Source: a virus
Reading direction: 5' to 3' (one strand)
Virus record (IMG/VR): IMGVR_UViG_3300035113_000009
Span: 1 to 33,725 of that record
Length of the DNA stretch: 33,725 nucleotides
Part shown: positions 13,209 to 33,565 of the stretch, one piece after another
How the letters are laid out: every line of letters starts with the position of its first letter
Position numbering within the stretch: the first letter of the stretch is position 1
The notes under the pieces: generated by a model
What the model was told of the DNA's origin: nothing
The model's input: the letters and a program-made list of their open reading frames with translations, nothing else
The model's database searches: none
Made by a program: the position numbers and the translations under genes

Positions 13209-13399
13209 ATTTTTCGCCTTACAGGTTCTTTCTCCGCGTGAATATCGCCATCCTGCGCTGGTTTATCTGGATGGCAGATTATCAGCAGGATTCGTTGCGC
13301 CGCATGGACTGGCCGCGATCCCCGATGATAGACGACCGGAAAGCGCAACTGGACGGCGAGCTGATCCAATGCGAAATGCGGCTGCGGTATCTGTCATGA
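13205..13399 (+). CDS. Small protein with N-terminal hydrophobic helix, 64 aa
   Basis: The GTG start is coupled by GTGA overlap, and AGGA lies eight bases upstream. The N-terminal FFLRVNIAILRWFIWMA could be membrane-associated; the rest is a charged helix (DRKAQLDGELIQCEMRLRYL). It is coupled by ATGA to the acyltransferase gene. The role is unknown. Confidence 0.6.
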   Translation: MNFSPYRFFLRVNIAILRWFIWMADYQQDSLRRMDWPRSPMIDDRKAQLDGELIQCEMRLRYLS

Positions 13400-14223
13400 C
13401 CCTATCCATATTCCACACCCGCGAATTCTTCGACCTGCATCAAGGCACGCATTACCTGCAATCTGGCAACACGGTCATGCCGGTATGGTTGCAGGATGGC
13501 CTCGCTTATTCCCCGTTGCGCGGTACATTCGGCGGATTTGGCGGCGAAGTGTCGTTGGCCGCGTATGAGGATATTGCGAATCAACTGATGCTGATAGGCG
13601 CGAAGGAATACCGGATCAAGCTCGCCCCATCGTCGCACGATCAGGAAGCGTTCGCGCTGGCGTTTAATGTGCTGAGTCGCGCCGGATTCCAAGTTATCGG
13701 GCAGGAGTTGAATTACGACCAGCCGATTAATCTGATACTGCCATTGGCAGAAGGAAACAGAAAGCGGCTTGCCAAGTTAAAACGCGAGGCATTCACTGCT
13801 TACTATATGCCAATAGAAGAAGTCTATCCTGTGATTGCAGAAAACCGGCAACGCAAGGGAAAACCTATGTCGATGCCACTTGATGCGCTTATGGAAATGG
13901 AACGAATATTTCCCGGACGCTTGCATGGTTTTGGAATTACTTCGATAGGCGGTTCGCTTGTTGCTGGGGCAATTTGTATTGATCTGAATCACCAGACTCG
14001 CTATATTTTCATGTGGGGCGATGGACCAAACATGGAAGTATTTTCGCCGGTAGTATTGTTGGCTAACTTCATCCATTGGCATTCTCTTTCTTCGCTGTTT
14101 AGCTTGCTCGACGCCGGAACATCTACCGAAAACGGTATCCCGAACTATGGGCTGATTCAGTTCAAGAGAAGTCTCGGCTTCCGCGAGTCGCTGAAACTCA
14201 CGATGGGGTTGCGCCGTGAATAG
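13396..14223 (+). CDS. FemAB/GNAT-like acyltransferase
   Basis: The 275-aa protein resembles the FemAB/CelD-type GNAT proteins, which transfer acyl or aminoacyl groups. Visible elements are an N-terminal RGTFGGFGGE segment, a central KRLAKLKREAF with GSLVAGAICIDL, and the C-terminal IPNYGLIQFKRSLGF typical of the second GNAT lobe. The ATG at 13396 overlaps the previous stop (ATGA). In a block with a ketoisomerase and an aminotransferase it could acylate an amino sugar, though it does not resemble the hexapeptide-repeat acetyltransferases usual in Fuc3NAc pathways. That role is inferred. Confidence 0.7.
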   Translation: MTLSIFHTREFFDLHQGTHYLQSGNTVMPVWLQDGLAYSPLRGTFGGFGGEVSLAAYEDIANQLMLIGAKEYRIKLAPSSHDQEAFALAFNVLSRAGFQVIGQELNYDQPINLILPLAEGNRKRLAKLKREAFTAYYMPIEEVYPVIAENRQRKGKPMSMPLDALMEMERIFPGRLHGFGITSIGGSLVAGAICIDLNHQTRYIFMWGDGPNMEVFSPVVLLANFIHWHSLSSLFSLLDAGTSTENGIPNYGLIQFKRSLGFRESLKLTMGLRRE

Positions 14224-14467
14224 ACGTGGGTTCCTTTCTAGCTGCATCGCGCTATGTGTAGCGCCAGCAATCGTTCGCGCCGATTCGTTAATGCGAATAA
14301 TTCCGATTGAGACTGAAATAATCCTGCCGCCAACCGGATCGCTTTTGACGATAGACATGATTACCAGAGAGGCATTAAAAGTTTTAGAAACAAACATGCT
14401 TTTTAACAAATCAATCAGCAGGTATTACGAAGATGCTCACACCCAATTTTCTATCCGCAGATATTGA
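14216..14467 (+). CDS. Tat-signal protein with a coat-protein N-arm-like C-terminus, 83 aa
   Basis: The protein starts (GTG) with MNRRGFLSS, a twin-arginine motif followed by a hydrophobic stretch (CIALCVAPAIV) and RADS, a plausible signal peptidase site after residue 22. Its last part, LLTIDMITREALKVLETNML ... ISRYYEDAHTQFSIRRY, aligns with the first ~50 residues of the coat protein encoded at 31098-32375 (LLTISMITNESLMVLENELT ... LRTYDESFG ... LNVRRP). It overlaps the acyltransferase gene by eight bases and the next gene by 35. The function is unknown; the family seems to occur in other phages, by recollection. Confidence 0.65.
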   Translation: MNRRGFLSSCIALCVAPAIVRADSLMRIIPIETEIILPPTGSLLTIDMITREALKVLETNMLFNKSISRYYEDAHTQFSIRRY

Positions 14468-15272
14468 CGGCTTCCGTTTTGACAACGGCATGTGCTTGTT
14501 GGAGTTCGACACCATCAGTCGAACCGACACTCCCGACCTATCGACCTATACCGGCGCATACAAGGGCTGCGGGCGCTTTACGTCGTTGGTCGAGTCCTAT
14601 ATCCGCGAGCGATTCGACATCGTGGAGATTCCTACGCCGCAGATGCTGTTGCCCGGGGTCGTCGCCCGTGATGCCTGTATCACCAATTACTTCGATGCTG
14701 CCGATCCAAGCAAGCTGCGCTACTTAGTCGCAGAAACGATGGCGCGCAAGATACTCGGCATTCCCTACAAGACGATTGCCGATGGTTACTACCGTGCCGG
14801 ATGGTGCCCGCCGCCGCATATCAAAAAAGGACTGCGGCCCGTCACGTTCCACTACCCGAAAGCCGGATACTTCGGCATCATGGCCGAAACGCTAGGCGTC
14901 ACACCGAGCGCGAAACGCGACGATCTGGACACCGTAGAACTTTCGCTGGCCTTCGTGACGGGCATTCCCGATATCGTCGCCAGCGTGCTATTCGTGGTCA
15001 CTGCATCGCCAATTTACCGAGTGACTAACCAAGATACCTGCATCGGCATGGATGGCAATTGCCGCATGGTGGTCGAGTATCGCGGGGCGTGCGATGTTGC
15101 TGCCGAACTTGATCGGCTAGGGATATGCTCATACCCGACCGTGCGCGGAACGAAAACGATACGCTACCCGTTGCCGACTGTGGCGAATCTTCGGAAAGCG
15201 CCGGACCTGTATGCCAATACCTTTAACGCGCAAATACTGAAAGGAATCATCAATGCAAAAACTGTCACCTGA
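14433..15272 (+). CDS. Unknown protein, 279 aa, in sugar-modification block
   Basis: The protein starts MLTPNFLSADIDGFRFDNGM and includes AETMARKILGIPYKTIADGY and GWCPPPHIKKGLRPVTFHYP. No family is recognised, and no Rossmann, GNAT or PLP signature is visible. A hydrophobic stretch at IPDIVASVLFVVTAS might be a buried strand-helix or a membrane-associated segment. It overlaps both neighbours (35 and 20 bases), so it is expressed with the acyltransferase and methyltransferase. It may be a new enzyme of the block or an unrelated insertion. Confidence 0.65.
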   Translation: MLTPNFLSADIDGFRFDNGMCLLEFDTISRTDTPDLSTYTGAYKGCGRFTSLVESYIRERFDIVEIPTPQMLLPGVVARDACITNYFDAADPSKLRYLVAETMARKILGIPYKTIADGYYRAGWCPPPHIKKGLRPVTFHYPKAGYFGIMAETLGVTPSAKRDDLDTVELSLAFVTGIPDIVASVLFVVTASPIYRVTNQDTCIGMDGNCRMVVEYRGACDVAAELDRLGICSYPTVRGTKTIRYPLPTVANLRKAPDLYANTFNAQILKGIINAKTVT

Positions 15273-15936
15273 CGCCTATGCTGAACTGCAACTGCCCGAC
15301 CAGCATATCGAGGACATCATGCAGGAGTACGAGGCAAAATGGATACTGGAACAGACGCAGGGCTGCAATACCATTCTGGAACTCGGATGGGGAAGCGGAA
15401 TAATTGCCAAGGCGCTGCACAATGCTGGGAAATCTGTTCTAGTTCTTGATGGTTCTAGAGAAAGTTGCCATATCGCTTATCAACATCATGGCATTATGTC
15501 TATGCAAACCATGTTTGCAGATTTCACCACTTCACAGATATACGATTGCGTTATTGCATCATTCGTGCTTGAACATGTAGAAAATCCAGTTGATCTGCTT
15601 TTGCAATGCGGGAAATTGGCAAAAAAACTGATTGTCGTTGTCGGCAATGCCAACAGCTACCATCGGCAATTAGCGGTGCAGATGGGATTGCAACCGTGTC
15701 TAGATTCACTATCCGCACGCGATGAGCAAGTGGGCCATTACCGTGTTTATGATTTTGCTACGATAAAAAGCCAACTAAATGTCACAGGATGGACTCCTAT
15801 GCATTGGAAAGGTCTGCAATTCAAGCCTCTCCCAAATAGCATGATTACGAACTTCGATCCCAAGCTGATCCGCGCCATGTGCGAGATAGACGTGCCGTTC
15901 GAGTGCGCTGCGAATTTAATGATTGTCTGCAAATGA
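15253..15936 (+). CDS. Class I SAM-dependent methyltransferase
   Basis: The 227-aa protein has motif I ILELGWGSG (41-49), an acidic strand-2 end (VLVLDGS), IYDCVIASFVLEHVENP as motif IV/post-motif and a helical C-terminal cap. This is the fold of small-molecule O-, N- or C-methyltransferases such as UbiE- or TylF-like enzymes, not a DNA methyltransferase. AAGGA lies eight bases before the ATG. It is coupled by ATGA to the aminotransferase gene, so a sugar intermediate is the likely substrate, by context. Confidence 0.8.
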   Translation: MQKLSPDAYAELQLPDQHIEDIMQEYEAKWILEQTQGCNTILELGWGSGIIAKALHNAGKSVLVLDGSRESCHIAYQHHGIMSMQTMFADFTTSQIYDCVIASFVLEHVENPVDLLLQCGKLAKKLIVVVGNANSYHRQLAVQMGLQPCLDSLSARDEQVGHYRVYDFATIKSQLNVTGWTPMHWKGLQFKPLPNSMITNFDPKLIRAMCEIDVPFECAANLMIVCK

Positions 15937-16529
15937 ACGCATACAAGGTAGTCGAAGATTTCGAGGCCGCGCTTGCGGAATATACTGGCGCGCCGTTCGT
16001 TGTCACGACGAACAGTTGTTCAATGGCGCTGCTGGTTGCGTGTAGCTATGGGGCGCAATGGCATAAGGATGAACTTATCATTATCCCCTCTCGCACCTAT
16101 TGCGCAGTTCCACAGTCAATAATCCACGCTGGATTTCGCGTCGATTTCAGCGATACGGACTGGCGCGGAGAATATCGCCTTTATCCTTCGATAGTATGGG
16201 ATTCCGCCCGCCGCTTCACTTCCGGCATGTATCGGCCCGGCCAGATGCAGTGCGTGTCATTTCAGACCAGTAAAATCCTCGGCCTAGAGCAAGGCGGGGC
16301 GATCCTATTGGATGATCCAGAAGCGGACCAGTGGCTCAGGAGGGCGCGTTTTGATGGCCGATTGAACGCATCAGAGAAACTACCAAAGCAGATCGGCTGG
16401 CATTGCTATCTCTCGCCAACAGTCGCCGCACTCGGCTTGCAGCACCTCGCATGCCTGCCGCGCCATAACGAGGATCAAGCCGGATCGAAGGATTTCGCGG
16501 ACTTGTCAAAACTCGATATATGGACCTGA
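15933..16529 (+). CDS. DegT/DnrJ/EryC1-type PLP aminotransferase, half-length
   Basis: The protein follows the large domain of sugar aminotransferases: TTNSCSMALLVACSYG near the N-terminus, DELIIIPSRTYCAVPQSII, VWDSARRF (Asp90, where PLP-binding Asp is expected), and SFQTSKILGLEQGGAI with the putative Schiff-base Lys114. It ends at 198 aa after a QHLACLPRHNED helix, whereas family members are usually about 360-400 aa, so the C-terminal domain is missing. No continuation is seen in other frames. Normally these enzymes aminate keto-sugar nucleotides. Whether this short form is active is unknown. Confidence 0.75.
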   Translation: MNAYKVVEDFEAALAEYTGAPFVVTTNSCSMALLVACSYGAQWHKDELIIIPSRTYCAVPQSIIHAGFRVDFSDTDWRGEYRLYPSIVWDSARRFTSGMYRPGQMQCVSFQTSKILGLEQGGAILLDDPEADQWLRRARFDGRLNASEKLPKQIGWHCYLSPTVAALGLQHLACLPRHNEDQAGSKDFADLSKLDIWT

Positions 16530-16885
16530 TTCAGTTCCCGAAGATTCTCGACGCGCGCGGCAATCTGACCTTTGTCGAACGCCTGCCATTCGCCATTAAA
16601 CGCTGCTACTGGCTATATCACGTTCCCGATGGCTCACTGCGCGGGGGCCATGCACATCGCACGCTGGATCGCGTATTTATAGCCGTAGCGGGCAGATTCA
16701 AGCTCAACGGAATCGAACTCAGCAATCCGTGGGAAGGACTTCGCGTGCTGCCGATGACATGGGTCGAACTGACCGATTTCAGCAACGGAGCAGTGTGCCT
16801 GGTACTTGCGAGCGCGCAATACGACGAATCGGATTACATCAGGGATCGCGTGGAATTTAATCGCTTGACGCAGATATCCGCATAA
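16520..16885 (+). CDS. FdtA/QdtA-type dTDP-4-keto-6-deoxyglucose 3,4-ketoisomerase (WxcM-like cupin)
   Basis: The 121-aa cupin has the characteristic RGNLTFVE, PFAIKRCYWLYHVP and RGGHAHR (His44, His46) segments, the histidines of which act in catalysis in FdtA-type enzymes. These convert dTDP-4-keto-6-deoxyglucose to the 3-keto isomer that a DegT-type enzyme then aminates, the first steps to dTDP-3-amino-3,6-dideoxyhexoses. It overlaps the aminotransferase gene by ten bases, which fits pathway order. The dTDP-sugar precursor would have to come from the host, as no RmlA/RmlB gene is in the window. Ketoisomerase versus a related epimerase is not settled by sequence alone. Confidence 0.85.
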   Translation: MDLIQFPKILDARGNLTFVERLPFAIKRCYWLYHVPDGSLRGGHAHRTLDRVFIAVAGRFKLNGIELSNPWEGLRVLPMTWVELTDFSNGAVCLVLASAQYDESDYIRDRVEFNRLTQISA

Positions 16886-25929: not shown

Positions 25930-27387
25930 TCAATTGCTTCCCGGCGTGGCGTTCAAGTTCGCAGACACGACGACACGATAGACCGGATCAGTGACGGTAA
26001 CTTCAAAGATACGATCACGAGCAGCGCCTAGCCTGCGCCATATCGCCCGATGCTTGTACTGTCCTGTTTTGCCGATAGTAGCGGTATGCTGCGTGCCGAA
26101 TGTCGAACCGCCATCGTCCGACCAAGTAAGAACAGCTTTGGGATCGCTTCCCTGTCCGGTTTGCAAGCCCACTCCGGGCTGAAACTGTATCTGCAAGTCG
26201 TGAAAGAATTGCCGCTTTAGATCGGTTGTCAGATGCTGGCAGCGACGGATACAGGGAATCAATGACCCGTCCATATCGGTGAAAGTCGATTGCGACAGCA
26301 TGTAAAGATTGCCATTCTGCCAATCGCCGACAATCACATCGCCGTTGAAATTCATCGAGCAGTTTCCACGGTGCCGGTGCAGGATGTTATTTGCGTCACG
26401 ATAGGCGCGTTTATGCCAGTATCCAGTCGCGAGGTCATAGACCCATGTAATGTCCTCGGTTGGGAAATTCAGCACATAAAATTCATGCCCTGACTGCGTA
26501 TAGGTGTAGGCAACTGCATCATTCGTGACGGCATAATTCTGGATCGCATATTCCACGGCGAACGTCGATATCCGAACTGGGGTATAACCCTTCATCTGCA
26601 CCACGGTTGCGTTCCCTCGCGTGTCATTGGCAAGGAACGCGAACGATTCGCCGAGGCGCGAAACCGAGAACGGGGCAAGCGTTCCGTGCTGCATTGATGT
26701 GCCGGGAATGCGCTGGAATGGAAACGGAAACGTGCCGACATCCGTCCAGACTTCGGTGAAACACTCTTTAATCAGGAATATCTCCCGATTGCTTACTATC
26801 AGGCTTATTAGATTCCCGGTAGAGCCATCGGCAGAGGAAAAGTTAAGCGCGCTGGATGTAACCGACAACGCATCGGTGCAGCCCCATTGGTTTGTACCGG
26901 GATTGTTGTAGATCAGAAAATTGTCGATGATGTCCGTGCGTGTGCCATTGGCAAATGCGCCATCATTGATCGCGGCGAAAGTATTCGTTCCCCATGTGTA
27001 GTAATAACGACTAGCGCCATCGCACAGATATGCGCTCACGCCATTGTCGGCAATCGACACAGGCCCGGAAGTCGTCAGCAGCGTACCGACTGCGGTTTCA
27101 TTGAAATTCGCGTCGATGTAGTACAGGACATTGGAACTAACTACCAGACAGGTAACACTGCCCGGAAGCGTATAAGTGGCACGGACAGGGCCACCAGCAG
27201 CCGTTTCCAGCTTTAGCAGTAATCCGGGCGCAGGATAAAGTGCAATAACGCCGCGCAAATCCTGCGTGGTTGGATTATCATCAGTCTTGGTCGGGTCAGT
27301 CTCTGGATACCAGTTAATCGACTCCTGATCGTTCTGTGTGAGCGATGCGGCTATGTATGATCCGCCGACGAATCCAAAATCACTCAC
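25930..27387 (-). CDS. P22 gp10-like packaged DNA stabilisation / head-completion protein
   Basis: The 485-aa protein matches the gp10 family: GFVGGSYIAASLTQNDQESI and NWYPE at the N-terminus, PGTSMQHGT and LAND in the middle, DLATGYWHKR, and the C-terminal RIFEVTVTDPVYRVVVSANL. In P22 it plugs the head-tail connector after packaging, assembling on gp4. I chose the GTG at 27387 because it forms a GTGA overlap with the upstream gene and has GAGG upstream; the frame remains open further 5'. Confidence 0.88.
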   Translation of the reverse strand: MSDFGFVGGSYIAASLTQNDQESINWYPETDPTKTDDNPTTQDLRGVIALYPAPGLLLKLETAAGGPVRATYTLPGSVTCLVVSSNVLYYIDANFNETAVGTLLTTSGPVSIADNGVSAYLCDGASRYYYTWGTNTFAAINDGAFANGTRTDIIDNFLIYNNPGTNQWGCTDALSVTSSALNFSSADGSTGNLISLIVSNREIFLIKECFTEVWTDVGTFPFPFQRIPGTSMQHGTLAPFSVSRLGESFAFLANDTRGNATVVQMKGYTPVRISTFAVEYAIQNYAVTNDAVAYTYTQSGHEFYVLNFPTEDITWVYDLATGYWHKRAYRDANNILHRHRGNCSMNFNGDVIVGDWQNGNLYMLSQSTFTDMDGSLIPCIRRCQHLTTDLKRQFFHDLQIQFQPGVGLQTGQGSDPKAVLTWSDDGGSTFGTQHTATIGKTGQYKHRAIWRRLGAARDRIFEVTVTDPVYRVVVSANLNATPGSN

Positions 27388-27566
27388 TTCGCCATCCTCG
27401 CAACGATTGCAGCGCCATTTACCTTGAACCACTTCGCGAATTCGCTCTTCTGCTGCGGATGGTCTTTCAGCAATTCATTCGCAATCGCAAGCGCGGAATC
27501 TTCCGTGAGGTCGTCAGCAGCTTTCCATGCCGCGACAATTTCAGCTTGTTTATCAGCGGCATTCAT
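27384..27566 (-). CDS. Small helical protein between gp4- and gp10-like genes, 60 aa
   Basis: The ATG at 27566 overlaps the stop of the gp4-like gene (ATGA). The product is helical and charged ([20 protein letters not shown] ... [16 protein letters not shown]). No family is recognised. Being coupled on both sides to connector genes, it may be a small connector or assembly protein. Confidence 0.6.
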
Positions 27567-28501
27567 TGCGTGAAACCCCCGGAGAATATCCACGCGGCAT
27601 CATTTCTGCGATTCATACTGACAAGAGCATCATCGAACCGCGCAATCTGTGGCGGGTTCATATTTGTACGTTTCACCCACGCGCGAGACTCGGCAGCATT
27701 CTTTTGGATAAGTTGCACCTGTACCGGATCGGTCGTGCGCCCGTATTCAGGCAGAAGCAGTTCGGCAAGGTTCCAGCGAATCGCCATGTTATAGCCCTGC
27801 GGCAGCGTGACTGTTTCTGCCAGCGTGTTGAATCCTTGCAGTACCGTTTCCGCGAACATGTGCATTTCGCCTGATCCTGGCACCGGCCAGAATGTGATAT
27901 TGCCGACCGGCGATGAAGGCTGGTAGTACAACATGCGCGGCCACGGCCCTTGCAACGTCTTGAAGCCGATCAGCTCGTATTGCTCAATATTGACCGGCGT
28001 CACGATGTAGTCAAGCGACGATACGCGGACGAAGGCGCTATTGATCCGCAATGGGCGCTGGTAGTAGGTCGTTATCGTCGTGCTGGTGACAGGCGCGGAA
28101 GTGTAATCGACGCTTACCTGATAGGTGCCAGTCTGCCCCGCGCCGGTAATGAACTTGATAACCTGCGTTCCTGCCGTAACACCTGAGCCGGTCAGATATT
28201 GCCCAAGTGCGATATTCCCTGCTGATATTGACGAAACTGTCAGCGTTGTCCCCGCGATGCTTCCGGTGAAGGTTCCGCCTATGGTTCCACCCTGTCCGAT
28301 GGTGTATTGATAGACGTTGTTCGTCAGCGTGAAAATGATTTCAGTGACGTAATTCACCATCATGGTCGAGTTCGACCACGTTTCCAGCATGTCGTTGAGC
28401 ATGTCGAGGCAATCGTTTGCATCCGATGCCTCTATGGTTTCCCCCGGAGCGTAAGCCCCGATTGCCCTTAGAGAGCGAGTTACCAAGTCGAGGGCTTGCA
28501 C
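27563..28501 (-). CDS. P22 gp4-like tail accessory factor with inserted beta domain
   Basis: The 312-aa protein follows P22 gp4 at both ends: [20 protein letters not shown] and [17 protein letters not shown] at the N-terminus, [22 protein letters not shown] and [22 protein letters not shown] later. gp4 completes the portal ring and starts head closure. Residues about 77-143 ([20 protein letters not shown] ... GTYQVS) form a Ser/Thr/Gly-rich beta module inserted between YTIGQGG and RPLRI. The start is a GTG at 28501 with GGAG eight bases upstream. Confidence 0.85.
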
Positions 28502-28525: not shown

Positions 28526-28855
28526 TTAATTGCCTATGCCGTTTTGCACCTTGACGACCGCTGTACTGCTTCCAGTAATGCCGCTGAAGTACGCATCGCG
28601 CGGGCCGGTGACAACGATTTGCGTCGAGTGCAGCAGGTAGTAGCAGTTCTGCACTGATGCAGCCGCAGCAGCATTTTTAGCCGCCTCCGCAGCCGTTGCG
28701 CCCCACCCGACAACGCAGTCAATCGCAGCATCAGTATTGGTCAGGAGGTATTGTTGCGCGGTTTCTCCAGTTAGACTTATCGCCTGCACCGCTGTCGGCG
28801 CAGAGGTTGCCCCGGTAAAGCTGAGCAGCGGGCCTTTGGGCTGAAATGCGATCAT
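28526..28855 (-). CDS. Small virion-associated protein, 109 aa
   Basis: The protein is hydrophobic to neutral with an alanine-rich helix (GWGATAAEAAKNAAAAAS) and beta-type ends (VVTGPRDAYFSGITGSSTAV). It starts in an ATGA overlap with the next structural gene. Its place between the glycosyltransferase and gp4 suggests a minor head or decoration protein; no definite family is recognised. Confidence 0.6.
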   Translation of the reverse strand: MIAFQPKGPLLSFTGATSAPTAVQAISLTGETAQQYLLTNTDAAIDCVVGWGATAAEAAKNAAAAASVQNCYYLLHSTQIVVTGPRDAYFSGITGSSTAVVKVQNGIGN

Positions 28856-29247
28856 GCCGGATCAACCGTTATGGTGATGACACCGACTGCCGAGGTTGGC
28901 GTGCCAGTCAGAACAACATTCAGCGAATCTCCCGCAACAAAGCTGCGCGTCGGAACGCCTGCAACCATTGTCAGTGACTGATTCGTATCTGCCGTCCCTG
29001 CCACATCGAAGCTGCCAGAGTGCAGCAGCGTTCCAGATGCAGCGGCAATGGTCGAAGCGCACTTATAGAACTGGAACGTACATGCGCCACCGCTACCAGC
29101 TACACGAGGGCGTCCGGTAATCGCTACCACGCGGCAGGGGAACTGCGCGATCCACGCCGCCTGTGTGACCGTGTTTGCGTCATACTTGAATTGAATGTAC
29201 TTGCAAGCACCCTGGCTATCCATTACTCCTAATGCGCGTCCGCCCAT
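28852..29247 (-). CDS. Beta-rich structural protein, 131 aa
   Basis: The protein contains QGACKYIQFKYDANTVTQAA, FPCRVVAITGRPRVAGSG and many Thr/Gly/Val strands, consistent with a jelly-roll or decoration fold. AAAGGAAA precedes the ATG. It is coupled to the next gene by ATGA. It is likely a head fibre or decoration protein, inferred from composition and place. Confidence 0.6.
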   Translation of the reverse strand: MGGRALGVMDSQGACKYIQFKYDANTVTQAAWIAQFPCRVVAITGRPRVAGSGGACTFQFYKCASTIAAASGTLLHSGSFDVAGTADTNQSLTMVAGVPTRSFVAGDSLNVVLTGTPTSAVGVITITVDPA

Positions 29248-29262
29248 ACGATTTCCTTTCGA

Positions 29263-30702
29263 TTATGCTGCGATTGATTCAGTTTTACGGGCCGGATCGT
29301 CACTGCCTCCGGGCTGCTTCTTCAAGAATGCGTCATAGTTGCCGTACCAGCCCTGCACGCCGAAGTGCCCCATATTCACCCGCGGCTCGACCCAGATGTC
29401 GCCGCCAATGGCCTGCCAGCGGATACCGAAGCTGATGTCCTCGCCGTAGCGAACGTGGTCAAGCGTGATGTGCCCGAAGAAGTTGTAGAGCTTGCGCCCG
29501 TTATCCCAGTACCAGTCATGCGGATTGGCCTTCTTGAGCTTCTCGAACACGGTACGGCTGATCTTCATGAATCCGGTCGGCACCTTCTGCGCCTTGATCA
29601 GGCCATCTTCATTCACAACCGCATGGTTGTTTTCGTCGTTGTGGATCGTGACGCCGTAGTTTTCCCAATTGTTTTTGACCGGATACGCAGCCCCAACGAT
29701 TTCGACATCAGCTTTCAGCACATTCAGGAAGCCTTGGAAGTCCCAGGATTGATCAGAGTCGAGGAAAAACAGATGTGTGCAGTCGGATTTCAGGAACATA
29801 TCCGCCATCAGGTTACGATTGTGGTCGATGTACGACCCGCCCGATACATCCTGAAAATCGAATTCCAGCGTTGTGTGCCGTGCCAGCGCATAGACCGTCT
29901 GAAACATGGAGCGGATATATGGCGAGTAGCCCTTGTTTTCGTAGAAGGGCGTCGAAATCATGATCTTTTTCTTGCTGCGATCAATCGGGTAAAGCCGCTC
30001 GTTGATCAGGTCGAGTTCATCGCAATGACGTTCAAGATTGTCGCCAGTGATCGCGGACAAGTTCGCGTTGTCATCGCGCCTGCGAATACTTGCAAGCGGT
30101 TCTTGTATCACATGTAGGTCATGCGCCTTGACGATGCGCGCATACCACTCAAGATCGGCCAAAAGGTGCAAATCCTCGCTGAAATAGCCGAGTTCGGCAT
30201 GCAACTCACGACGGTACAGGCTGGTCGAGATATACAGCAAGTTGCCGTTTTTCAGCAGTTTCTGCCAATCTGCACGAATACGGTTTTGTACTTCTTTCGG
30301 CTGTCCAACCGGATCAGATACTGGCGCATCGGCCTCATCAATGAATCGGGGCAAGCCAAAAGCGATGCCGCAATCAGGATTCGCATCAAGATACGCCACT
30401 TGTTTGGCGAGCTTCTCAGGCTCCCATACATCATCGGCGGCAAGCAGGGCGATATAGTCGCCAGTCGCGCGCCGAACAAGATTGTTCGTAGTTTTGTTCT
30501 GGCCTTCGTTGGCCGTTTTCAGCACTACGGAAACACGAGGGCTTTCGTAGAATTTCAGCACCTGCGCGGAGTTATCCGTTGATCCGTCGTCCTCTATCAG
30601 CAACTCCCAATCCGTGAAGGTTTGGGCAAGCACGCTGTCAATCGTGCGCGCAATCAAATGGCCTAGCTGGTACGACGGTATGCAGACGCTTACTTTTGGC
30701 AT
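29263..30702 (-). CDS. Two-domain glycosyltransferase (GT2 plus second GT-A domain) in the head gene cluster
   Basis: The first ~210 residues are a family 2 glycosyltransferase: KVSVCIPSYQ, IDSVLAQTFTDWELLIEDDG, ALLAADD (metal-binding Asp90-Asp91) and LADLEWYARI. From about 245 a second GT-A-like domain begins (KIMISTPFYENKGYSPYIRS, DHNRNLMADMFL) with its own FFLDSDQSWD (Asp315, Asp317) and GAAYPVKNNW. The gene lies among coat and connector genes behind a terminator-like hairpin, with GGAG six bases before the ATG. It probably transfers sugars onto a phage structural protein, or else onto host surface glycans. It is a natural partner for the sugar block at 13396-16885. Confidence 0.85.
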   Translation of the reverse strand: MPKVSVCIPSYQLGHLIARTIDSVLAQTFTDWELLIEDDGSTDNSAQVLKFYESPRVSVVLKTANEGQNKTTNNLVRRATGDYIALLAADDVWEPEKLAKQVAYLDANPDCGIAFGLPRFIDEADAPVSDPVGQPKEVQNRIRADWQKLLKNGNLLYISTSLYRRELHAELGYFSEDLHLLADLEWYARIVKAHDLHVIQEPLASIRRRDDNANLSAITGDNLERHCDELDLINERLYPIDRSKKKIMISTPFYENKGYSPYIRSMFQTVYALARHTTLEFDFQDVSGGSYIDHNRNLMADMFLKSDCTHLFFLDSDQSWDFQGFLNVLKADVEIVGAAYPVKNNWENYGVTIHNDENNHAVVNEDGLIKAQKVPTGFMKISRTVFEKLKKANPHDWYWDNGRKLYNFFGHITLDHVRYGEDISFGIRWQAIGGDIWVEPRVNMGHFGVQGWYGNYDAFLKKQPGGSDDPARKTESIAA

Positions 30703-30800: not shown

Positions 30801-31085
30801 TTACGCGGCCCAGATTCCGATTGCCACCAGCGTTGCCTGAATTTCCGCAATCGCGGCAATGGCATTGTTGGCTTGCGTCGAGGTCGAGAAGCCCCAGATT
30901 GCGGACGTGGTAGATACGGCCACAGTCGTTGCAATCGTGGTATGCGATGCAGCAGTTGCCCGCTGCACCACAGGGGTCGTGCCGTAAAAACCTACGGTAT
31001 CAGCCGGATCGTCAGCCACCCAAAACGGGGAGCCGCCGCCGACAAATGTCGCGGTCGTGGTAGATGCTGCGCCTGGATTGCTCAT
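30801..31085 (-). CDS. Small capsid-associated protein, 94 aa
   Basis: The protein is Ala/Thr/Ser-rich, with DPADTVGFYGTTPVVQRATA and a C-terminal helix (NNAIAAIAEIQATLVAIGIW). This pattern is common for small proteins encoded right after phage coat genes. It probably decorates the head or forms fibres. It lies 12 bases after the coat gene and is followed by the hairpin at 30719-30777. Confidence 0.65.
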   Translation of the reverse strand: MSNPGAASTTTATFVGGGSPFWVADDPADTVGFYGTTPVVQRATAASHTTIATTVAVSTTSAIWGFSTSTQANNAIAAIAEIQATLVAIGIWAA

Positions 31086-31097
31086 GTCATTTCTCCT

Positions 31098-32375
31098 TTA
31101 AGCCGCGACTCGGCAGGCAAGTTCCTGATAGAGCGGAGCCCATCCGAATAGCACATCGAAACGCGCCGGTATCTGGTCGTTGTTGATGGTGTATTGTCGG
31201 ACAACGCGGATCGAGATTCCCGCTTCCTTGGATGCCGCTCGCCCTGCATACACGACACCAGCAGGCAATTCCAAATCCGCCATCGCGCAGGTAAATGCGT
31301 TTTTGTGGAAAAGGATGTTCTGCGGCGAAGTATTGCCGGTTGCCGATACCCCGATGCTATAGGGGGTCACGGTTGCGGTTGCCGAAGTGCTGGTAATGCT
31401 CACGTTTTGGAACTGGCCTGCGGTTATGATCGCCGGAGCAATCGTCAGCGTGCCGGTCGAGGAACCCGTACCGCTGAAATCCGACCGTACAACGAACGTG
31501 CGCGGCTGCGTGCCGTAAATCTGGCGATTCTGCGGATTCACCGGGAAAACGTTGGCAATACTGATGATGTCGCCCTTTTTCAGCGTTACCGTTGCACCGA
31601 ATGTCAGCGTTACGTTGCTGGTTTCAGCCCATCCGGTAGCAATGCCGATGGAGGTCGTATTGACGGTCAGCGTGGAAGCGGACGATGCAGCCCATGCCCC
31701 GGTAGTCTGGGTATTCACGTTCTGATCCATCTTCCAGTTCATGCCAGCCGAATCGCGGCCCATCAGACCCTTCATGTACTGCGATCCGATCTTGTCGCTC
31801 GGCATGAACAACCCTTTGAGGCTATCCACAATCGATGCGCCAGTAAAGGGCTCGATTACAACAGCGCGGGAACCGTCACGCGGCGCAGCCTCAGCATCGA
31901 GGTAGGCACCAGCAGTCAGATACGTCAGCAGGGCCGTAGGCGGTGTACCATAGGTGCCGACGATGTTCGCCGTGGAGTTTTTCGCCATTTGCAGACCGAT
32001 ATAATCGACGCGGTTTGCAACCGCAGCGACCGAGGGCTTAATGACGTTTTCGGAGAAAGCACCCAGAGACAGGCGCAAATCCTTGGTAGTGAAGGCGGTA
32101 TCGACGTGGAACTGGTCGCCGTACTTGGTGGTATCGCCGACAACGACTGGAATCGAGGTCTGGTTGTAATCCTCGATGCTCAGATTCGGGCCGGATGTAC
32201 CGATGAAACGCGGGGGGCGGCGAACATTCAACGTATCGCCGATTTTTGCACCATCGACGCCGAAAGACTCGTCGTAGGTACGAAGAACCTGACTGGTAAA
32301 GGTCAGTTCGTTTTCGAGCACCATAAGGGATTCATTGGTGATCATCGAAATCGTAAGCAGGGTATCTGTGCTCAT
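31098..32375 (-). CDS. Major coat protein, P22 gp5-like
   Basis: The 425-aa length matches P22 coat. The N-terminal arm (LLTISMITNESLMVLENELT, GDTLNVRRPPRF), the VVVGDTTKYGDQFHVDTAFT segment, a Thr/Ser-rich insertion region (about 240-340) in place of the P22 I-domain, and the C-terminal FHKNAFTCAMADLELPAGV and RFDVLFGWAPLYQELACRV identify it. It forms the icosahedral shell. GGAG lies five bases before the ATG, and a strong promoter is at 32485-32513, consistent with high late expression. The N-arm has a partial copy in the protein at 14216-14467. Confidence 0.92.
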   Translation of the reverse strand: MSTDTLLTISMITNESLMVLENELTFTSQVLRTYDESFGVDGAKIGDTLNVRRPPRFIGTSGPNLSIEDYNQTSIPVVVGDTTKYGDQFHVDTAFTTKDLRLSLGAFSENVIKPSVAAVANRVDYIGLQMAKNSTANIVGTYGTPPTALLTYLTAGAYLDAEAAPRDGSRAVVIEPFTGASIVDSLKGLFMPSDKIGSQYMKGLMGRDSAGMNWKMDQNVNTQTTGAWAASSASTLTVNTTSIGIATGWAETSNVTLTFGATVTLKKGDIISIANVFPVNPQNRQIYGTQPRTFVVRSDFSGTGSSTGTLTIAPAIITAGQFQNVSITSTSATATVTPYSIGVSATGNTSPQNILFHKNAFTCAMADLELPAGVVYAGRAASKEAGISIRVVRQYTINNDQIPARFDVLFGWAPLYQELACRVAA

Positions 32376-32518: not shown

Positions 32519-33565
32519 TCAGAAACAACCCATTCCGGCACTGGCATTTCGCGGGGTCATAAAAGCTACCCCAAGGTTATTCCCGCCATTGGTCGAATGA
32601 TCGCCAGCAAAGAATTTGTATCCATTTCCGCCAATAAGATCGGTAATACTCAAGTAATCGCCGCTGAAAATTGCCCCCGTTTTAGTGATGGTATAGCGCG
32701 TTCCAGGCGTTACAGCATTAAGCGTTATCAGATTCCCCAGGGAGCCGGTAAAGCCCGTAAGCGTGGTGACGGAAACAGCCTGCCCGGAGGCAATTGTCAC
32801 AGTTTTTGGGGCGGCATCAAGCTTTAGCTCACCGATTGTTACGGGGATGGAAGTTGAATTCGCCACAATTTGATTCATGCCGGTTCCAGCACCGGAAAAC
32901 CAAACGATGTTATATGTTTGATGCCCCGACTGAAAAGTCTTTGCGACAGAACTCGTGCTTGTGAATTTTACTGTTCCATTGAATGTTGCCGTTAGGCCTG
33001 TGACAGTATTTAACTGCCACGCAACGGTTCCCGTATCGTCCCCTGTCACTGTCCATAAAGCATTCTGCGTTATGCTACGCGTATTGGCATTGTTGGCAAG
33101 CAATCGCGCCATAGTAACGGGGAAACCCCCATCATCAAATGCACCATTAGTAACCGATAGATTTCCACTGGTGTTGAAGGCATCTGCCAACGTCCAACCG
33201 CCACCAACACCATTAAATAAAACCGCACCGCCAAGAACTTTGCTATTGCTAGCAATGGTTTTACCAGTCGTTGTGGCGGCAAATGTCACGCTGCCTGTAT
33301 ATGTGATCGTCCCGCCAAACGTCGCATTCCCGCTGATGGCAAGCGCAGAGCTACCAGCAAATGTGCCGGTATAGGCGTTGAATGTGTAGTTTAGGCAGGC
33401 GCTCGATACATTTACCGTCAGCGTGCCAGCGCCGCTCGCTACGTCGCCAGTCGCATCAATCGCCGCAGTAGGAAACGGCGCACCAGTCGCGCCGCCGGAA
33501 AGCAGCGACCAAGATGCAGTCGTGTTCCAGTTGACCGAACCGCCACCTGTGATCAGGAAGGCCAT
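32519..33565 (-). CDS. Beta-rich virion protein, possible head fibre or adhesin, 348 aa
   Basis: The protein is dominated by short Thr/Gly/Asn/Val strands (GAGTLTVNVSSACLNYTFNA, SGNATFGGTITYTGSVTFAA), which suggests a repetitive beta-solenoid or stacked beta-sandwich. It ends in a compact tail (NNLGVAFMTPRNASAGMGCF). No enzyme motif is seen. It lies upstream of coat where P22 phages carry scaffold, but it is clearly not a helical scaffold protein. It is probably a surface fibre or decoration, inferred from composition. Confidence 0.65.
   Translation of the reverse strand: MAFLITGGGSVNWNTTASWSLLSGGATGAPFPTAAIDATGDVASGAGTLTVNVSSACLNYTFNAYTGTFAGSSALAISGNATFGGTITYTGSVTFAATTTGKTIASNSKVLGGAVLFNGVGGGWTLADAFNTSGNLSVTNGAFDDGGFPVTMARLLANNANTRSITQNALWTVTGDDTGTVAWQLNTVTGLTATFNGTVKFTSTSSVAKTFQSGHQTYNIVWFSGAGTGMNQIVANSTSIPVTIGELKLDAAPKTVTIASGQAVSVTTLTGFTGSLGNLITLNAVTPGTRYTITKTGAIFSGDYLSITDLIGGNGYKFFAGDHSTNGGNNLGVAFMTPRNASAGMGCF

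Follow-up and report, generated by a model that had tools for sequence, protein, structure and literature searches.

Paired genes for a glycosyltransferase and a small head-fibre-like protein: a candidate capsid-glycosylation cassette in uncultivated P22-type phages

The window analyzed here, the whole 33,725-base viral record IMGVR_UViG_3300035113_000009 (a linear contig that may be incomplete), carries a gene for a double glycosyltransferase (GT) inside a P22-type head module, beside a gene for a small protein of the 'FYG-TPV' type (hereafter FYG). We propose that this soluble two-domain enzyme probably glycosylates the FYG head-fibre-like protein, so that the capsid would carry sugars. Beyond the window, we lean, if only slightly, towards a cassette of two genes that is widespread among uncultivated P22-type phages and pairs a small head-fibre protein with its own decorating GT. 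Some versions would add a methyltransferase, tandem GTs, or a deoxy- or amino-sugar made by the phage. Such a cassette would give the capsid a phage-made sugar coat and would be exchanged independently of the coat gene. We infer the activity, the acceptor, the donor sugars, and the presence of the product in virions from sequence. Coordinates are collected in Table 1.

Table 1. Features of the window, in order of position, with the evidence for each
Feature	Coordinates	Strand	Evidence
Sugar block: protein with acyltransferase-like look	13369..14223	+	28% to syntenic L056 ORF
Sugar block: 279-aa protein	14433..15272	+	26% to syntenic L056 ORF
Sugar block: SAM methyltransferase	15253..15936	+	PF13489 E 5.7e-10; 56% to L056
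Sugar block: short DegT/DnrJ/EryC1 aminotransferase	15879..16529	+	PF01041 E 2.1e-21; absent from L056
Sugar block: FdtA-type dTDP-sugar ketoisomerase	16520..16885	+	PF05523 E 2.1e-34; 46% to L056
Head closure / gp10-like stabilization protein	25930..27432	-	phrog_578 E 1.4e-102
gp4-like tail accessory/adaptor protein	27563..28501	-	HMM from annotated adaptors E 3e-32; phrog_637 E 8.5e-6
109-aa protein between GT and adaptor	28526..28855	-	position only; Pfam/PHROG: no matches
131-aa protein between GT and adaptor	28852..29247	-	position only; Pfam/PHROG: no family above cut-off
Double glycosyltransferase, 479 aa	29263..30702	-	PF00535 and phrog_1574 matches; AF2 model
C-terminal phrog_1574 / STIV A197-like GT-A domain, residues 237-479	29266..29994	-	phrog_1574; 2c0n profile matches
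N-terminal GT2 domain, residues 1-236	29995..30702	-	PF00535 E 9e-30; VIA Z 26.3 to 2z86
'FYG-TPV' small coat-adjacent protein, 94 aa, probably head-fibre-like	30801..31085	-	co-occurrence, co-movement, co-variation with C-domain
P22-type major coat protein	31098..32375	-	PF11651 E 1.7e-29; phrog_283

The double GT is a single open frame, and it lies in a same-strand series that runs from the coat gene through the FYG ORF, the GT, and the 131- and 109-aa ORFs to the gp4-like adaptor and the gp10-like closure gene. The first-pass annotation had placed the GT among head genes, between coat and connector, and that position holds. It had also assigned these genes to the same late transcript. Intergenic gaps in the head module range from -4 to 99 bp, and a minus-strand scan from coat to adaptor, whose promoter and terminator totals were at chance level, found no terminator apart from one site within the coat gene. 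Hence, a single late transcript from coat to adaptor is likely. Directly upstream of the coat gene, a 348-aa protein (32519-33565, minus strand) occupies the place where relatives have a scaffolding protein; it matched no Pfam or PHROG family above cut-off.

To characterize the enzyme, we compared both halves of the protein with family profiles and structures. Residues 5-169 match PF00535 at 104.2 bits, against a curated cut-off of 23.3, and residues 243-450 match phrog_1574, a family of 'unknown function', at E = 1.1e-20; the C half has no Pfam match. A profile of 11 C-terminal domains (hereafter C-domains; alignment A2) found one significant structure in the PDB, STIV A197 (2c0n, E = 9.4e-8), which a profile from 72 sequences (A8) matched as well (E = 3.9e-6). 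The motif A-D-D lies at residues 89-91 and L-D-S-D at residues 314-317. In the N domain, D38, D90, D91, and D183 are invariant in seven full-length sequences (alignment A3); these acidic residues would include the DD motif and the Asp base of such enzymes. An alignment of 69 C-domain rows, 16 of which span both domains, shows no variation at D315, D317, D422, and H446, among other positions. Residue 421 begins a helix in the AlphaFold2 (AF2) model, so that the C-domain has both a DxD and a helical Asp base. These results support the first-pass prediction of two GT-A-type domains, and both motifs that it cited, ADD and LDSD, are present.

Structure prediction, a check proposed with that reading, gave a confident model of the whole protein (pLDDT 92.9, pTM 0.88); a 109-row alignment was not used for folding because it matched GT2-only rows to the C-domain. 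Foldseek with the full model returned two-domain GTs, heparosan synthase 2 and K4 chondroitin polymerase, as the best PDB matches, and the N domain superimposed on chondroitin polymerase 2z86 with a VIA Z of 26.3 (rmsd 2.1 over 227 residues). The C-domain was also confidently modeled, and the fold-search matches of the whole model were taken up by the N domain, so that the structural check bears on the N-terminal half and the profile match to A197 on the C-terminal half.

To see where such enzymes occur, we scanned viral contigs with four C-domains (A1), found 340 relatives, and kept the best 80; the scan was seeded with P22-type phages, so its counts describe the window's subfamily. Annotated P22-type phages supplied the profiles that we used to detect coat, adaptor, and gp10 genes. 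A P22-type coat gene was present in 70 of the best 80 of 340 loci and lay upstream of the C-domain in 69, which argues that the C-domain gene is no stray cargo. The median gap from coat to C-domain was 374 bp over these 70 coat-bearing loci, and the full order of coat, C-domain, and adaptor/gp10 was found in 45 of the best 80 of 340. All four C-domain loci from bacterial assemblies had a P22-type coat gene too, and contigs of Nitrosomonadales, Gallionellaceae, and other groups hint at possible hosts of phages with the cassette. The C-domain is nonetheless optional for the coat: a set of 80 close coat relatives (60-78% identity) includes only 8 that carry it.

The form of the enzyme varies within this slot. 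Among 88 C-domain ORFs, the window's included, 55 consist of the C-domain alone. An N-terminal part is present in 17, of which 16 group with the window's GT2 in a single homology cluster (GT2 confirmed by Pfam in all six ORFs of the cluster that were scanned), and a C-terminal part of one family is present in 16, with a weak Methyltransf_24 match in one of the three scanned. A C-domain enzyme is common in this slot, and the fused double GT represents one of its forms. Two loci encode proteins with three GT domains in the same position, two GT2 and a C-domain (L060, 1817-4021, and L064, 4065-6311). Seven others (L082, L090, L097, L108, L122, L125, and L133) have two C-domain ORFs, mostly side by side, an arrangement that may yield longer glycans. 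A methyltransferase-like ORF of ~170 aa directly precedes the C-domain gene in 10 loci (for example, L072, 9438-9962), and another such ORF was seen in L044 (11519-12025).

The C-domain gene also has a partner, FYG. Five C-domain loci with less than 1.5 kb upstream were dropped from the count; of the 75 that remain with enough sequence, 68 have FYG upstream of the C-domain, mostly within about 100 bp, and a 69th locus (L059) has an FYG ORF that overlaps. A long fibre-like protein takes the place of FYG in six other loci of the C-domain set and in two of the four assembly loci, some of them with an FYG-like head. Loci with a C-domain and a longer fibre-like or other small protein, and no clear FYG, are L066, L068, L069, L077, L078, L079, L135, L137, and L293. 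FYG was found in none of nine remote C-domain loci. The profile for FYG was built from coat-gene surroundings, mostly with a C-domain, and could favor finding FYG there. A reverse search started instead from loci selected by FYG sequence patterns alone, with at least 1.2 kb downstream (17 FYG loci were too short and were dropped). A C-domain followed in 71 of 71 loci in one set (A12) and 66 of 72 in another (A13); the two sets overlap in part, and the C-domain set already included some of their contigs. After dereplication of FYG loci at 90%, a C-domain was present in 107 and absent in 10, under a stricter distance rule that misses overlapping ORFs such as that of L059.

A comparison that starts from the coat gives the same association. 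Among 64 coat relatives with enough sequence (16 with less than 1.5 kb downstream were dropped), the FYG type stands behind the coat gene in six of the seven with a C-domain, versus 5 of the 57 without (Fisher p = 4e-5, uncorrected for relatedness); 49 of those 57 have a 140-aa protein of another type there. FYG does not need the enzyme, because it occurs without a C-domain in 6 of 72 loci of A13 and in those 5 of 57 coat relatives. The loci are homologous, so none of these counts should be read as independent trials.

What kind of protein FYG is can be said less firmly. Searches with 56 relatives gave matches to the head-fibre families phrog_6994 (two relatives) and phrog_4366 (one relative), hence in at most 3 of the 56, at E = 0.004-0.008; the window's copy had no head-fibre PHROG match, and none of the 56 had a Pfam match. 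FYG is probably a head-fibre-like protein, a label that we regard as weak. The monomer model was too poor (pLDDT 62) to serve as a query for structure searches. Its absence from several relatives without a C-domain made Tyr34, in the FYG motif, a candidate acceptor, but the counts gave no support: with a C-domain, 70 rows have Tyr and 37 another residue, and without one the split is five and five (Fisher p = 0.49, from a crude pattern that misread some rows). The Ser/Thr content of FYG is no higher with a C-domain (median 0.21) than without (0.25), and neither comparison turned up an acceptor residue in FYG.

Co-variation bears on which neighbor the enzyme acts upon. Over 52 dereplicated loci, with near-identical coats dropped beforehand, FYG and C-domain identities correlate with a Spearman coefficient of 0.51 (partial 0.52 given coat; 0 of 999 permutations), whereas FYG and coat identities give 0.21 (partial 0.24), and C-domain and coat identities give 0.00. 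L002 has a coat only 32% identical to that of the window, yet its FYG is 77% and its C-domain 67% identical; the L002 contig is not long enough to reveal a sugar block. In L061, the GT gene lies upstream of the terminase gene terL, about 5.5 kb from the coat gene, with two FYG ORFs directly before it. Because the GT is so closely linked to FYG, relocates together with it, and co-varies with it, we suggest that modification of FYG is the simplest role for the enzyme, and that the FYG protein is its likeliest acceptor. In favor of this proposal we also count A197, the nearest solved relative of the C-domain, which is essential in a virus with a glycosylated coat protein (PMC10551542). The first-pass annotation had named coat, fibres, or host surface glycans as targets and had not singled out FYG.

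The same data weigh on a target elsewhere in the virion. The GT might instead act on the major coat protein, or on some other component of the virion such as the product of the 131- or 109-aa ORF or a tail part, with FYG only aiding assembly or bringing the enzyme to the capsid. The coat is an abundant neighbor, and there are precedents: passages of PMC10551542 describe the STIV coat protein as glycosylated and A197 as essential, and name A197, as does PMC4187194, as the suspected but unproven coat-glycosylating enzyme, while glycans on mycobacteriophage capsid and tail-tube subunits are cited, after Freeman et al. 2023, in a passage of PMC12619734. We nevertheless consider such a target unlikely, given the absence of any correlation between C-domain and coat over the 52 loci and the L061 locus, in which the GT went with FYG and away from the coat.

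A second possibility is that FYG and GT travel together through linked inheritance only, with no working relation; neighboring genes do exchange together, and the loci are related. The gp4 adaptor on the downstream side serves as a control here. Over 32 loci, it gives -0.07 against the C-domain, where FYG gives 0.51, so adjacency alone does not explain the co-variation. Moreover, the coat gene is just as close a neighbor of FYG, yet FYG follows the coat less, and FYG-GT pairs persist with a methyltransferase gene in between and after relocation, as in L061. Linkage without function is thus rather improbable.

Substrates outside the virion are less likely for the window's subfamily. Phages often carry genes for host-surface glycans, and the N domain resembles polysaccharide synthases and, weakly, GtrB models; the GT could therefore alter host glycans, through serotype conversion or receptor masking, and lie in the head operon simply for the sake of late expression. 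The protein has no transmembrane-like stretch (maximum Kyte-Doolittle 19-residue mean 1.0), no GtrA (PF04138) was found in the record, itself possibly incomplete, and the tie to FYG in 137 of 143 testable rows (from two sets that overlap in part) would be unexpected for a host-directed enzyme, which together leave little room for this role. Remote C-domain members in T4-like, cyano-, and pelagiphages are located elsewhere than the head-module slot. Some remote relatives adjoin replication genes, and other substrates are therefore possible for the family. In the T4-like phages Cr30 and phiN3 (L052 and L053), the relatives are flanked by the genes for a recombination nuclease and for the sliding clamp and are candidate DNA-modifying GTs. 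That the window's C-domain is itself such an enzyme, as phage DNA GTs are, and in the head module by accident, is very improbable: these two relatives and three Manatee Spring phages, whose C-domain has exonuclease or other replication or recombination genes nearby, speak for it, but the record has no thymidylate synthase-type base-modifying gene (PF00303) and the close subfamily is found, together with FYG, in the head module.

If the enzyme acts on FYG, a source of sugar might be the block at 13369-16885 on the plus strand, to which the first-pass annotation had linked the GT. One relative supports this link. L056 is the closest full-length double-GT relative (coat 38%, gp4 32%, gp10 31%, GT 54%, FYG 63% identical) and has same-order counterparts of four of the five sugar-block genes (28, 26, 56, and 46%), with no DegT. 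The first gene of the block, whose product has the look of a possible acyltransferase, has no Pfam or NCBIfam match. A scan with the window and L056 methyltransferases found the L056 contig only, and the window's methyltransferase had no match in 50,697 phage records. FdtA occurs in 1 of 42 P22-type records searched (26 of the 42 with a C-domain), that of L056, and DegT in none of the 42; the block is therefore no general part of the cassette. FdtA also occurs in four other viral contigs (L298-L301), but these are phages with neither a P22 coat nor a C-domain in the flanks examined.

Three further observations concern the block. The window's DegT protein has about 200 residues against a 360-residue model, although it lies in a tight operon. 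A 361-aa ORF just before FdtA in L298-L301, and not in L300 and L301 only, resembles a full-length DegT by eye. An 83-aa ORF (14216-14467, plus strand) contains, after a signal-like start, a segment that resembles the coat protein's N-terminal arm (coat HMM E = 1.5e-6; 36-52% identity to other coats over 33-45 residues); it has no full-length relative in the 50,697 phage records and none in the L056 sugar block.

We envisage that FdtA ketoisomerase, aminotransferase, and methyltransferase would convert a dTDP-sugar of the host into a modified deoxy- or amino-sugar nucleotide, and the presence of FdtA in the block fits a dTDP-sugar made by the phage. In the late phase, the GT would attach a short glycan to the FYG protein encoded between GT and coat. 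The first sugar would be added to the protein by one domain and extended by the other, in either order, and the two domains suggest a unit of at least two sugars. The assembled capsid would then bear the sugars via FYG.

Virion glycosylation is documented for few phages, as far as the literature covered here goes, and a search of titles and abstract openings on virion glycosylation by phage GTs, on GTs in phages of this kind, and on A197 with bacteriophage capsid, returned no description of an FYG/A197-like GT pairing. If our proposal is right, this pairing would be a sequence signature predicting glycosylated capsids in many environmental P22-type phages. It would also name a concrete acceptor and give a likely function to a PHROG family called unknown. 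The purpose of capsid sugars could then be tested in a small, soluble two-protein system.

Several known systems share some features with the cassette. First, heparosan synthase 2 and K4 chondroitin polymerase, which polymerize glycosaminoglycans, likewise carry two GT-A domains on one chain; their identity to the double GT is 12-24% over aligned parts, however, and the domain arrangements fail to superimpose (rmsd about 21 Å over both domains). Second, PHROG models of the O-antigen conversion enzyme GtrB match about the first 110 residues of the double GT (E = 1e-8 to 3e-6), but the GtrB system differs from this enzyme, which has no membrane-like stretch and no GtrA in its record. Third, mycobacteriophage virion glycosylation also involves a phage GT, and a passage of one citing paper reads a phage GT with a methyltransferase as a sign of virion glycosylation (PMC13313380). 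According to passages of such citing papers, that system has glycans on virion proteins, as we propose for this cassette, but its targets are capsid and tail-tube subunits, and its hosts are Actinobacteria. Finally, STIV A197 is the only clear PDB profile match to the C-domain and, like it, is viral, with a DxD and an Asp base, from a virus whose coat is described as glycosylated in the passages cited above. A197 is a lone domain of an archaeal tailless virus, whereas here the domain is fused to a GT2 and has a small-protein partner in P22-type phages; if our reading holds, an archaeal virus enzyme and bacterial phages would be joined in one theme.
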